64,000 nucleotides of DNA. It comes from Kordia periserrulae (GTDB lineage Bacteria > Bacteroidota > Bacteroidia > Flavobacteriales > Flavobacteriaceae). Below the pieces are notes generated by a model. That model saw only the letters and a program-made list of their open reading frames with translations, did not search any database and was not told the origin of the DNA. Where the stretch lies: positions 496,001 through 560,000 of the forward strand of contig NZ_QBKT01000001.1 of assembly GCF_003054265.1 (NCBI RefSeq), given 5' to 3'. The translations under genes and the position numbers were made by a program. Numbering within the stretch: position 1 is the stretch's first letter; each line of letters starts with the position of its first letter. Of this stretch, positions 35,933-58,615 are shown piece after piece.

Positions 35933-36030
35933 CCGCAGGCGTCATGCTGAACTTGATTCAGCATCTTATTATTGATGCACGATTGTTGATTTTTGATGTA
36001 CGATTTATTTGATGTACGATTGTTTGTTTT

Positions 36031-55760: not shown

Positions 55761-56606
55761 ATGCAAATTCAGCTAAAAAATCACACTTTTCAGATTGATC
55801 CTGGACAAAATAAACACTATTGGACGTATATCAATTCCATCGATTGGGAACCGCATACCTTTGCTATTTTTGACTATTTTGTAACGGAAGATTCTGTGGT
55901 ATTGGACATTGGTTCGTGGAGTGGCGTGTTGACGTTGTATGCGGCAAAGACTGCTAAAGAAGTACATGCGCTTGATCCAGATCCGGTGTGTTTTCGGGAG
56001 TTGAATGTGAATGTAGATTTAAATCCCGCTGTGGCGGAAAAAATACAAACCTATCAAACGGCGATTTCAAATACGAAAGAAAGCGTTCGTTTGTCTGCAC
56101 GCGCGCAATACGGAGCTTCGTCGAGTAGCATTTTAGAACGCAAACGCGATACTGAAAACTCTTTGGAAATCAACACGCTTTCGTTGGAAGATTTTTTGGA
56201 TTCGGAAAACATTCAAACCGTAGATTTTATTAAAATGGACGTGGAAGGTGCCGAATTTAAAATTTTACCAACAATTGGAAAGGCGTTGCAAAAAGTCAAC
56301 TATCCAACATTGTATGTGTCCTTTCATTATCATTTTTTGAATGAAAACATGTACCACAAATACATTCCGTCTACATTTTTAAACAAATTACTCATGCGAT
56401 TGGAACACACGTTCGGGTTTTCCCTTTTCAAAAAACGAATTCGAAAAGAAATCGAGCATTTATTCCAAGATGTAAAAGCATATCGCTACATTTATAAAAC
56501 CGACGGAACGCCGATAACTTATGAAACATTACAACAAAACCCACAATTGATTAAAACAACCGATTTGGTGTTTACGAATTTGGAGTGGGATGTGTCAAAC
56601 TTGTAA
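55761..56606 (+). CDS. FkbM-family methyltransferase
   Basis: 281 residues. Motif I is SVVLDIGSWSGVLTLYAAK near residue 50, followed by VHALDPDPVCFRELNVNV. The FkbM hallmark VDFIKMDVEGAEFKILPTIG is near residue 160. FkbM enzymes O-methylate sugars and polyketides, so it likely methylates a hydroxyl of the glycan made here. The ATG follows the stop of the GNAT gene directly. After it comes the palindromic repeat array with the GIY-YIG gene. Confidence 0.9.
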   Translation: MQIQLKNHTFQIDPGQNKHYWTYINSIDWEPHTFAIFDYFVTEDSVVLDIGSWSGVLTLYAAKTAKEVHALDPDPVCFRELNVNVDLNPAVAEKIQTYQTAISNTKESVRLSARAQYGASSSSILERKRDTENSLEINTLSLEDFLDSENIQTVDFIKMDVEGAEFKILPTIGKALQKVNYPTLYVSFHYHFLNENMYHKYIPSTFLNKLLMRLEHTFGFSLFKKRIRKEIEHLFQDVKAYRYIYKTDGTPITYETLQQNPQLIKTTDLVFTNLEWDVSNL

Positions 56607-56614
56607 TATATTTT

Positions 56615-56776
56615 GTCATTCCTGCGTAGGCAGGAATCCATACTGAACTATGCAATTTTGTAGTTCATCAAAAAAATTAACAAAAATGTAAAAAATAGAT
56701 TCCGCAACAAGTGCGGAATGACAAAATGAAACAAATTGTCATTCCTCTCAAGCAGAACAAAAAAAGAATCCAAATA
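56615..56776 (+). repeat. Palindromic unit 1 (empty copy, 162 bp)
   Basis: Left palindrome gtcattcctgcgtaggcagg (56615-56639 with its end), filler of about 58 bp with an inner hairpin (tgaacta/tagttca), right palindrome gattccgcaacaagtgcgga (56698-56722 with its end), then a 54-bp linker ending at 56776. The same order occurs in units 3 and 4. Confidence 0.85.
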
Positions 56777-57220
56777 GTCATTCCTGCGACTTGTACTGAG
56801 CTTGTCGAAGTAAGGCAGGAATCCACAAGAAACAATATGTACAAAACAATTCATCAATATTATGTCTATATTCTTTCTAACAAAAAGAATGGAACGTTAT
56901 ACATTGGTATCACAAATAATCTTGAAAGAAGAGTTTTTGAGCATAAAAACAAATTGGTTGATGGTTTTACTAAAAAATATAATCTTACCAAACTCATGTA
57001 TTATGAAATATTTCAACATGTTGACGAAGCCATAAAAAGAGAGAAAAGGCTAAAAAAATGGAAAAGACAATGGAAAATTAATTTAATTGAAGAGAAGAAC
57101 CCTAATTGGAAAGATATAGCTTCTGATTGGGCAACAAACATGGATTCCGCAACAAGTGCGGAATGACAAAATGAAAACAGCTTGTCATTCCTCTAAAGGA
57201 GAACAAAAAAGAACCCAAAT
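56777..57220 (+). mobile_element. Palindromic unit 2 carrying a GIY-YIG nuclease gene (444 bp)
   Basis: Bounded by the left palindrome at 56777-56824 (variant with the longer gtcattcctgcgacttg form) and the right palindrome at 57143-57167, followed by the shared linker to 57220. It has the same ends as units 1, 3 and 4, but the 58-bp filler is replaced by a 330-bp gene. There are no transposase motifs and no obvious target duplication. Confidence 0.6.
56837..57166 (+). CDS. GIY-YIG endonuclease domain protein
   Basis: 109 residues, a single GIY-YIG domain of the UPF0213/YhbQ type. The catalytic region starts YYVYILSNKKNGTLYIGITN, followed by NLERRVFEHK with the conserved Arg. Conserved Lys/Glu-rich helix KREKRLKKWKRQWKINLI follows. 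ATG 56837 is preferred; the frame extends upstream only through repeat DNA. The last residues (NMDSATSAE) and the TGA stop are encoded by the right palindrome, so the gene is tied to the repeat. No partner protein. It is likely a mobile or repeat-borne nuclease, not part of the glycan cluster. Confidence 0.85.
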   Translation: MYKTIHQYYVYILSNKKNGTLYIGITNNLERRVFEHKNKLVDGFTKKYNLTKLMYYEIFQHVDEAIKREKRLKKWKRQWKINLIEEKNPNWKDIASDWATNMDSATSAE

Positions 57221-57560
57221 GTCATTCCTGCGTAGGCAGGAATCCATACTGAACTATGCAATTTTGTAGTTCATCAAAAAAATTAACAAAAAATGTAAAA
57301 AATAGATTCCGCAACAAGTGCGGAATGACAAAACGAAAACAACTTGTCATTCCGCTCAAGCAGAACAAAAAAAGAACCCAAATGTCATTCCTGCGTAGGC
57401 AGGAATCCATACTGAACTATGCAATTTTGTAGTTCATCAAAAAAATTAACAAAAATGTAAAAAATAGATTCCGCAACAGGTGCGGAATGACAAAATGAAA
57501 ACAACTTGTCATTCCTCTCAAGCAGAACAAAAAAACCAAGATTCCCGCCTACGCGGGAAT
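57221..57560 (+). repeat. Palindromic units 3 and 4 (empty copies) plus terminal palindrome
   Basis: Unit 3 starts at 57221 and unit 4 at 57384, a 163-bp period. Their right palindromes are at 57305-57329 and 57467-57491. The array ends with gattcccgcctacgcgggaa at 57540, an inverted variant of the left palindrome. Together with the end of unit 2 this fills the gap before the glycosyltransferase gene; nothing else is seen there. Confidence 0.88.
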
Positions 57561-57565
57561 AGATA

Positions 57566-58615
57566 ATGAACAAACCAACCCAACATATCGTATTTTTAAC
57601 ACCAGGTTTTGCGGAATCCGAAGCGGATTCTACTACAATTCCTGTGCTGCAAGTATTTTTAAAAAGTATCCGAAAAGCATTGCCAGAAGCAAAATTAACC
57701 TTACTTGCTTTTCAGTTTCCATTCACAAAAAAAAGATACCATTGGCACGGTATTGAAGTGATTCCGCTAAACGGAAAAAATAAACGCCTCCGAAAACTAC
57801 AAACGTGGCGAAAAGCAGCAAAAACACTTAAAAAACTACACAAAATCCAAAAAATAGATACGATTCATAGCTTTTGGATTGGTGAATGTGCACGTATCGG
57901 ACAAAAGTTTGTGGATAAGTATAAAGTGAATCATGTTGTGACGGTGATGGGGCAAGATGCTTCGATTAAAAATTCGTACGGCGTGTATTTGGAAAATTCG
58001 AATGCCAGATTGGTCACGCTTTGCGAAAACCATCAGAAGACATTGCTTAAAAATTACGGTTTTATTTCCACAATCATTCCTTGGCATTTAGACGTTTCTG
58101 ATGTTCCTCCATTGCAGCAAAACACGATTGATATTTTGGGTGTTGGCGCTTTAAATTCGGTTAAAAATTACAGCGATTTTGTAGATATCATCGCAGTATT
58201 AGCGAAAACGCACCCGAACCTCAACGTTACAATTATAGGCGATGGCGACCAACGAAATGCTATTGAAACAAAAATCAAAAGTCTAGGCTTGGAAGACACC
58301 ATTACACTATTGGGAACGCTTCCTCGAAACGACGTTTTTCAAAAAATGGTGCAATCGAACATCTTGTTGCACACAAGTCATTATGAATCCTTTGGTTTTG
58401 TATTTTTAGAAGCCTTGTATTCGGGAATGCACATTGTTTCAACAAACGTTGGACTTGCCAAAGCATCTGACAAATGGAAGGTTTGCCATGAAAAAATGGA
58501 ACTCATTGAAGCTTGCGAATCGCTACTTTCGCAAAAGAACGTATCCAAAGAGCGCGTACTTTTGAGTTCAGAAACCGAAACTATCAACGCTTATCTATCT
58601 TTGTATCATGCGTAG
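57566..58615 (+). CDS. Glycosyltransferase family 4
   Basis: 349-residue GT-B fold enzyme. The first 170 residues form the acceptor domain. The donor domain begins around DILGVGALNSVKNYSDFVDI, and contains VTIIGDGDQRNAIETKI and LLGTLPRNDVFQKM. The C-terminal signature is HTSHYESFGFVFLEALYSGM, the E-x7-E motif of retaining GT4 enzymes. It has no membrane segment. Its stop overlaps the flippase start by 8 bp, so the two are coupled. The ATG at 57566 lies just after the palindromic array. Confidence 0.9.
   Translation: MNKPTQHIVFLTPGFAESEADSTTIPVLQVFLKSIRKALPEAKLTLLAFQFPFTKKRYHWHGIEVIPLNGKNKRLRKLQTWRKAAKTLKKLHKIQKIDTIHSFWIGECARIGQKFVDKYKVNHVVTVMGQDASIKNSYGVYLENSNARLVTLCENHQKTLLKNYGFISTIIPWHLDVSDVPPLQQNTIDILGVGALNSVKNYSDFVDIIAVLAKTHPNLNVTIIGDGDQRNAIETKIKSLGLEDTITLLGTLPRNDVFQKMVQSNILLHTSHYESFGFVFLEALYSGMHIVSTNVGLAKASDKWKVCHEKMELIEACESLLSQKNVSKERVLLSSETETINAYLSLYHA

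Follow-up and report, generated by a model that had tools for sequence, protein, structure and literature searches.

A GIY-YIG nuclease gene bounded by inverted GTC-tagged REP hairpins in Kordia periserrulae is a candidate partner for CGTC REPs

A gene encoding a 109-residue GIY-YIG nuclease in Kordia periserrulae lies between inverted, GTC-tagged REP hairpins, and repeats of this kind recur on both sides of related genes across bacteria. We propose a REPtron-like organization for the locus, with a GIY-YIG nuclease in the place of a RAYT, in which the protein and its cognate GTC-tagged REPs are inherited together and the facing REPs form the ends of the unit; on balance, we consider this the probable explanation. 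The proposal draws on the association of gene and repeats, the agreement between its two ends, a boundary on the upstream side that falls at the tag, the existence of sites that have the unit and of others that lack it, a conserved nuclease under selection, and the absence of a Y1 transposase gene from the window genome, where the window is the whole 64,000-nucleotide stretch of DNA that we analyzed.

The array spans positions 56615-57543 of the window and comprises four tandem units starting at 56615, 56777, 57221 and 57384. The spacings of these starts (162, 444 and 163 bp) confirm the preliminary description of this DNA, which had reported four tandem units with periods of 162-163 bp and one 444-bp unit carrying the gene. 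The left palindromes of the units have the form GTCATTCCTGCG..GCAGGAATC, and the right palindromes the form GATTCCGCAACAAGTGCGGAATGAC, with unit 4 differing by one base. The array and its neighbors are laid out as follows:

55761-56606, plus strand: upstream neighbor gene, a syntenic anchor; presumably an FkbM-type methyltransferase, by resemblance
56615-56638, plus strand: REP type A of unit 1, with GTC tag, 8-bp stem, 4-nt loop and CCA tail
56639-56697, no strand assigned: spacer ("filler") of unit 1, with its own hairpin and without similarity to the gene
56698-56722, minus strand: REP type B of unit 1, with 8-bp stem and 5-nt loop
56777-56823, plus strand: long-loop form of REP A in unit 2, 47 nt, lying 13 bp 5' of the GIY-YIG start codon
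56837-57166, plus strand: GIY-YIG nuclease gene of unit 2, 109 aa
57143-57167, minus strand: REP type B of unit 2, supplying the gene's last codons and stop
57221-57244, plus strand: REP A of unit 3
57305-57329, minus strand: REP B of unit 3
57384-57407, plus strand: REP A of unit 4
57467-57491, minus strand: REP B of unit 4
57566-58615, plus strand: downstream neighbor gene, a syntenic anchor; a glycosyltransferase, we assume from resemblance

The left and right palindromes are two subtypes of one GTC-tagged REP, set face to face. Type A, on the left side of each unit, reads GTC-ATTCCTGC-loop-GCAGGAAT, and type B, on the right side, reads GTC-ATTCCGCA-loop-TGCGGAAT; the GTC tags of both hairpins point outward in every unit, and each unit of the array is thus an inverted REP pair. 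REP A has a stem of 8, a loop of 4 and a CCA tail, the long-loop REP of unit 2 being the exception, and REP B has a stem of 8 and a loop of 5, with a CTA tail in units 1, 3 and 4 and a CCA tail in unit 2. The gene begins 13 bp past the left repeat and ends inside the right repeat with its reading frame intact, and the sequence of the right palindrome encodes its final codons and TGA stop, as had been noted from the sequence at the outset. Elsewhere in the window, a single GTC-tagged hairpin with another stem (CGTCATGCTGAACTTGATTCAGCATC) lies at position 35941.

The three simple REPs that we tested fold as DNA, with z-scores of -5.5 to -6.0. A left palindrome had been described as shared by the four units, and it is indeed present in all of them, but the copy in unit 2 is the 47-nt long-loop form, whose folding does not exceed that of shuffled sequences (z -1.25, with 27 of 200 shuffles doing as well). 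That the REP upstream of the gene in the window folds no better than shuffled sequence counts against the REPtron-like reading. A long-loop pattern has 11 matches in the window genome, 10 of them close variants of the unit 2 form, which indicates that the gene's left end is a repeat of a form amplified within this genome. Examples of long-loop REP A elsewhere in the genome are at C1:218368, C1:532031, C1:532140, C1:562693 and C1:562831. Other Flavobacteriaceae have different long-loop forms, the pattern matching in 11 of 199 genomes with K. periserrulae included, and the long-loop forms look as if another palindrome had entered the loop.

The filler common to units 1, 3 and 4 is conserved, and the hairpin ascribed to it was borne out when we folded the unit 1 copy against shuffles. 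We found no similarity above shuffles between the filler and the GIY-YIG gene. The idea that the empty units are deletion derivatives of the gene-bearing unit is therefore unsupported in the window, and we rejected the filler as a deleted gene copy there; at locus L113, however, two tandem units lack the middle of the gene. The unrelatedness of filler and gene is a further point against the REPtron-like reading.

Repeats of this kind are scattered through the genome. The pattern GTCATTCCN{4,24}GGAATC has 69 exact matches on 10 contigs of the 4.7-Mb window genome, and its reversed control has none in the same genome, so the repeats are not due to chance. Judged by eye, three of the 69 matches are not palindromes, leaving about 66, and about a dozen REP pairs with outward tags can be counted in the same way. 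In another Kordia genome, about 10 short REP pairs are packed into 2.2 kb (G006:C185:118006-120238).

The accessible part of a published survey describes CGTC REPs as carrying an unpaired xGTC tag, often in TGTC or CCTC variants, followed by a stem of 8-9 bp that begins with AT, a loop of 4-5 nt and a CCA tail; inverted (HH) dimers predominate, heterodimers occur, and spacers may hold a hairpin (Di Nocera et al, 2013; PMC3733652). The window palindromes fit this published description in tag, stem, loop, tail and arrangement as dispersed inverted pairs: they share the xGTC tag, the 8-bp stem starting with AT, the 4- or 5-nt loop, the CCA-like tail, the heterodimers and the hairpin spacers. The window tag is TGTC, a listed variant of CGTC, and CGTC itself is found at other loci with the gene (for example L144, L145, L147, L150 and L155). 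The same text describes CGTC REPs as apparently without a dedicated transposase, and the term "GIY" has no occurrence in it (PMC3733652). The preliminary description had missed this fit to a superfamily whose dedicated enzyme was published, as far as the accessible text goes, as missing. Searches of Rfam returned nothing at the gathering threshold.

The protein matches the GIY-YIG family PF01541 (E 4.4e-18; 65.8 bits against a cut-off of 22.6), and Pfam detects neither a second domain nor a match to PF01797. The expected catalytic positions Y11, Y22, R32, E69 and N88 are conserved in the window protein, and the two tyrosines, the arginine, the glutamate and the asparagine, whose catalytic roles we assume, are 98-100% conserved among the 196 proteins (of 213) that are free of stops and 80-135 aa long. 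The closest named relatives of the gene are from Kordia, at 96% identity. Ratios of dN/dS are 0.07-0.13 among the Kordia genes and 0.02-0.41 in five non-Kordia pairs, two of which (0.27 and 0.41) are weak evidence of constraint. No PADLOC model matches the protein, and phage records gave no match at 1e-5.

To place the locus in a wider context, we used a panel of 215 loci: the window gene, 80 loci on genome contigs, 29 from a search of 60 relatives, 89 from Bacteroidota (29 and 60 loci among the matches listed, from a 296-genome sample) and 16 from plasmids (of 34 records with the gene). These loci hold 226 genes, 221 after removal of identical ones, of which 213 were usable, with flanks of at least 120 bp and no N. 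The gene-palindrome link put forward in the preliminary description proved to be real and widely recurring: 150 of the 213 genes have repeats on both sides when a gene is counted either for flanks that form an inverted repeat with each other or for strict tagged hairpins in both flanks, and 86 when the tagged hairpins are the sole measure. The flanks of 137 of the 213 GIY-YIG genes share an inverted repeat (score at least 14); the controls reached this in 0.2% of 639 shuffles, none of 38 window ORFs and 5 of 84 ORFs from the same loci. One REP type is common to many loci, and flanks taken from different loci accordingly reached this score in 16% of 2130 cross pairs. A first cross-flank test, run on 76 of 80 loci after four with short flanks were dropped, had given scores of at least 18 at 56 of the 76 loci and at 1 of 68 outer controls.

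The association is strongest among the nearest genes, 74 of 83 having repeats on both sides by the same two-sided measure and 81 of 83 having an inverted repeat or tagged hairpin on at least one side. Of the two outcomes that the preliminary description had named as making the link coincidental, neither was seen. The two-sided rate was 12 of 25 in the sample of relatives, 52 of 89 across Bacteroidota and 12 of 16 for plasmid genes, falling to 7 of 16 when tagged hairpins are required in both flanks; these partial rates count against the REPtron-like reading. Low-scoring GIY-YIG genes (20 loci plus L002) were tried as a negative control and rejected: 10 of 21 reach a score of 14, L002 not among them, and several carry other GTC-type repeats by eye. 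Ordinary ORFs were therefore chosen as the control. Distant single-domain GIY-YIG genes (L258-L277) often adjoin other GTC-type repeats (GTCAGTTCGAG.., GTCACCCTGAG.. and similar), and the association may accordingly cover a larger group.

Plasmid records with the gene family include Sinorhizobium meliloti, Azospirillum lipoferum, Novosphingobium aromaticivorans, Sphingobium and Neisseria. The survey of CGTC REPs abbreviates its species, and the genus names behind the abbreviations are those we presume. In its accessible part, it names S. meliloti, A. lipoferum, N. aromaticivorans, S. chlorophenolicum and Neisseriae (PMC3733652).

Several individual loci show other arrangements. On S. meliloti pSymB (L146), the gene lies among repeats with CCTC-like tags in the opposite orientation, and pieces of the region match 132 plasmid records; we presume that these repeats are perhaps RIME. 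A relative of the gene in Neisseria gonorrhoeae (L149) lies among CGTCATTCCC hairpins that fit dRS3, in an orientation that is not outward as elsewhere. At a Photobacterium locus (L143), it is a neighboring short ORF (1747-1996) that has a strong inverted repeat between its flanks (score 26.5), the GIY-YIG gene there scoring below 16; our guess is that this locus is an integron cassette array. On a Planktothrix agardhii plasmid (L142), the gene is found between genes annotated as an MmeI-type restriction enzyme and a DISARM helicase.

Genomes with the gene also tend to be those rich in the repeats. Among 60 genomes, K. periserrulae included, at least five REP pattern matches occur in 16 of 26 with a close gene (E <= 1e-20) versus 2 of 34 without (Fisher 3e-6); outside Kordia, leaving out this genus being the one way in which relatedness was handled, the figures are 7 of 16 versus 1 of 33 (9e-4). 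The two exceptions with at least five matches and no close gene (G008 and G038) both have weaker GIY-YIG matches. Five genomes have a close gene and no GTCATTCC-type match (G013, G019, G027, G046 and G056). By eye, other GTC-type repeats are present at L042, L046, L055 and L057, and none at L041.

We compared the two ends of the units at the 80 of 213 loci with strict tagged hairpins on both sides. The stems of the two sides agree at a mean of 7.09 of 8 nt, versus 5.63 when permuted (0 of 5000 permutations), and at the 33 loci where the stems are not ATTCC on both sides the agreement is 6.36 versus 4.34 (again 0 of 5000). Identical stems on both sides are seen in Rhizobium (ATCCCAGG), Azospirillum (ATCCCCGC), Sphingobium (ACCCCGGG) and Novosphingobium (GCCCCGTG). 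The flanking repeats match each other, yet differ between lineages. On a protein tree with crude 5-nt stem labels, which 66 of 196 proteins lacked, stem type follows the tree in the division of ATTCC from all other stems (22 changes; shuffled mean 37.6, minimum 30), and stem types within the non-ATTCC group give no signal (21 changes versus 22.2 shuffled).

The boundaries of the unit were examined in 2652 gene-covering alignments of up to 700 bp between pairs among 84 double-hairpin genes, each pair being counted both ways, so that the alignments are not independent; 86 alignments over 700 bp were excluded as shared context. The upstream start falls within -6 to +5 bp of the GTC tag in 2015 of the 2652 alignments. 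The downstream end lies within -1 to +14 bp of the tag in 965, and 1589 end at least 16 bp before it, which means that the downstream end is not sharply defined. In two genomes (G317 and G023), the exact pattern of the flanking REP, one of two picked by hand and searched in a way that would miss degenerate copies, occurs only at the two positions beside the gene. There, the repeats belong to the unit, and insertion of the gene at a site already rich in repeats does not explain the arrangement.

Sites without the unit were found at orthologous positions, as the preliminary description had suggested looking for. The Kordia locus has the gene in 4 of 11 genomes (the window genome, G000, with G010, G001 and G006) and is anchored and gene-free in 6 of 11, the upstream anchor not being found in the remaining one (G008); a relative of the downstream neighbor is present in all 11 Kordia-genus genomes searched. 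The gene-free intergenic regions measure 51-340 bp by alignment ends, and in some of them REPs are present, either of this type or of another. The Azospirillum lipoferum unit is located between sufB and sufC, its gene having an inverted REP pair to either side, and three aligned relatives, whose flanks are 95-98% identical, have neither gene nor REPs at the site. A gene-free inverted REP pair (L030) is present in 2 of 11 Kordia genomes (G000 and G010) and absent from 8, six with both anchors and two with the left anchor only, G002 being left out. Empty sites at conserved positions, a feature of transposable elements, are thus seen at the Kordia locus, in A. lipoferum and at L030. Gene-bearing units also occur in tandem, at L069, L084, L091 and L108. 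The window genome has only one close copy of the gene, and this, together with synteny in four species, indicates that the gene is not visibly active there.

In the mechanism that we consider most likely, the GIY-YIG protein would recognize, cleave and spread the REPs. The protein may bind or nick the REP hairpin next to its GTC tag when the hairpin is exposed as single-stranded DNA or as a cruciform. GIY-YIG enzymes hydrolyze DNA and are not known to carry out strand transfer, so movement would need host repair, which weighs against the proposal: host replication and repair may copy or anneal the broken ends into new sites. The gene-bearing unit would move occasionally, and the short inverted REP pairs, using the enzyme in trans, would be mainly what spreads. 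The same process could also duplicate units in tandem.

Three other explanations deserve weighing. The low Kordia dN/dS, the synteny in four species and the conserved catalytic positions would suit a structure-specific nuclease domesticated by the host, whose task in genome maintenance would be to trim or resolve the hairpins and cruciforms that REPs form, with the adjoining REPs as its substrate and perhaps its regulators, and no present transposition. Similarities to known proteins lean weakly the same way, the nearest solved structure by sequence being the UPF0213 protein BH0048 (1zg2, E 1e-4), and a match to SLX1 being not significant (E 0.3). Presence and absence at conserved sites, gene units in tandem or with an internal deletion, an upstream limit that falls at the tag in comparisons across loci, and the confinement of the G317 and G023 repeats, by exact pattern, to the gene's sides all fit a mobile unit instead, and we regard domestication as unlikely. 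The same confinement weighs on a homing-like route, in which the nuclease would cut a gene-free REP or REP pair and double-strand-break repair would copy the unit in, the gene invading existing pairs without ends of its own: G317 and G023 offer no other exact match to invade (degenerate copies lay outside the search), and the three aligned gene-free Azospirillum relatives show no REP at the site. Free-standing GIY-YIG homing endonucleases do exist, gene-bearing and gene-free units of the same frame adjoin in the window, and the protein has a weak match to a group I intron endonuclease model (24 bits against a cut-off of 56); even so, we find this route improbable.

It is also conceivable that REPs capture unrelated DNA, and that a RAYT or other transposase moves the REPs with the GIY-YIG gene merely caught between two of them. 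Y1-family matches do occur in 23 of 60 relatives, but the window genome has no Y1 transposase gene (0 PF01797 matches), and genomes G003, G007 and G009 carry 27, 3 and 18 REP matches with zero Y1 matches. Among 20 Y1 loci examined, none has strict tagged hairpins on both sides, in keeping with the published account of CGTC REPs, and one has them on one side (within 450 bp); by the same hairpin criterion, 92 of 210 GIY-YIG genes have them on both sides and 129 of 210 on at least one side. The same gene family is, moreover, paired with different REPs across phyla, and, on a search that covered the Y1 class of transposases, we consider a passenger role for the gene very improbable. The REPtron-like unit with its own nuclease remains the reading that we favor, and the interpretation given in the preliminary description is, overall, partly supported.

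Free-standing GIY-YIG homing endonucleases share the GIY-YIG catalytic domain and are suspected of cut-and-copy spread, in which they resemble the window protein; this protein differs in its length of about 109 aa, its lack of a second domain by Pfam, the absence of a visible intron, and its hairpin boundaries. The UPF0213 single-domain GIY-YIG proteins (PDB 1zg2) are like it in size and domain, judging by sequence, and we know of no repeat association for them. The comparison with REPs and RAYTs made in the preliminary description is apt for the organization, but the enzyme is unrelated to RAYTs (PF01541, not PF01797). As far as the accessible parts of the relevant papers go, REPtrons and REPINs share with our locus a small nuclease gene that has inverted REPs on its flanks, an excess of REP pairs over the few copies of the gene, clusters of REPINs arrayed in tandem next to it, and a matching of gene and repeat types (Bertels and Rainey, 2011, PMC3116915; HuH survey of 2018, PMC6006769). 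RAYTs are HUH/Y1 tyrosine transposases that go with GTAG-type REPs, whereas the window protein is a GIY-YIG nuclease with a GTC tag (PMC3116915; PMC6006769). CGTC REPs were published, in the text accessible, without an associated transposase gene, a negative observation more than a defining feature of the class, and here a GIY-YIG gene is bounded by such REPs (PMC3733652). No publication linking GIY-YIG genes to REPs was among the matches listed, in literature covered mostly outside subscription papers. REPs with a dedicated enzyme were already known; what is new is the association of a GIY-YIG gene, unrelated to RAYTs, with CGTC REPs.

The GIY-YIG gene is a strong candidate for the partner that a large class of repeats scattered through bacterial genomes has so far lacked, and provides a specific, small and testable candidate enzyme for CGTC REPs, with a matching substrate for each protein. 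Whether single-domain GIY-YIG nucleases are the cognate enzymes of GTC-tagged REPs across bacteria, as a widespread class of minimal mobile system that pairs a roughly 100-aa protein with hairpin ends, arose independently of RAYTs and is tuned to a different hairpin in each lineage, we judge to be an even call. If they are, GIY-YIG nucleases would play the part for CGTC REPs that RAYTs play for GTAG REPs, adding a second, unrelated enzyme family to REP biology and making a minimal nuclease-hairpin pair available for study. A large class of dispersed bacterial repeats would then be explained, including the neisserial dRS3 and Rickettsia repeats that the accessible part of the survey places within the CGTC-REP class (PMC3733652).
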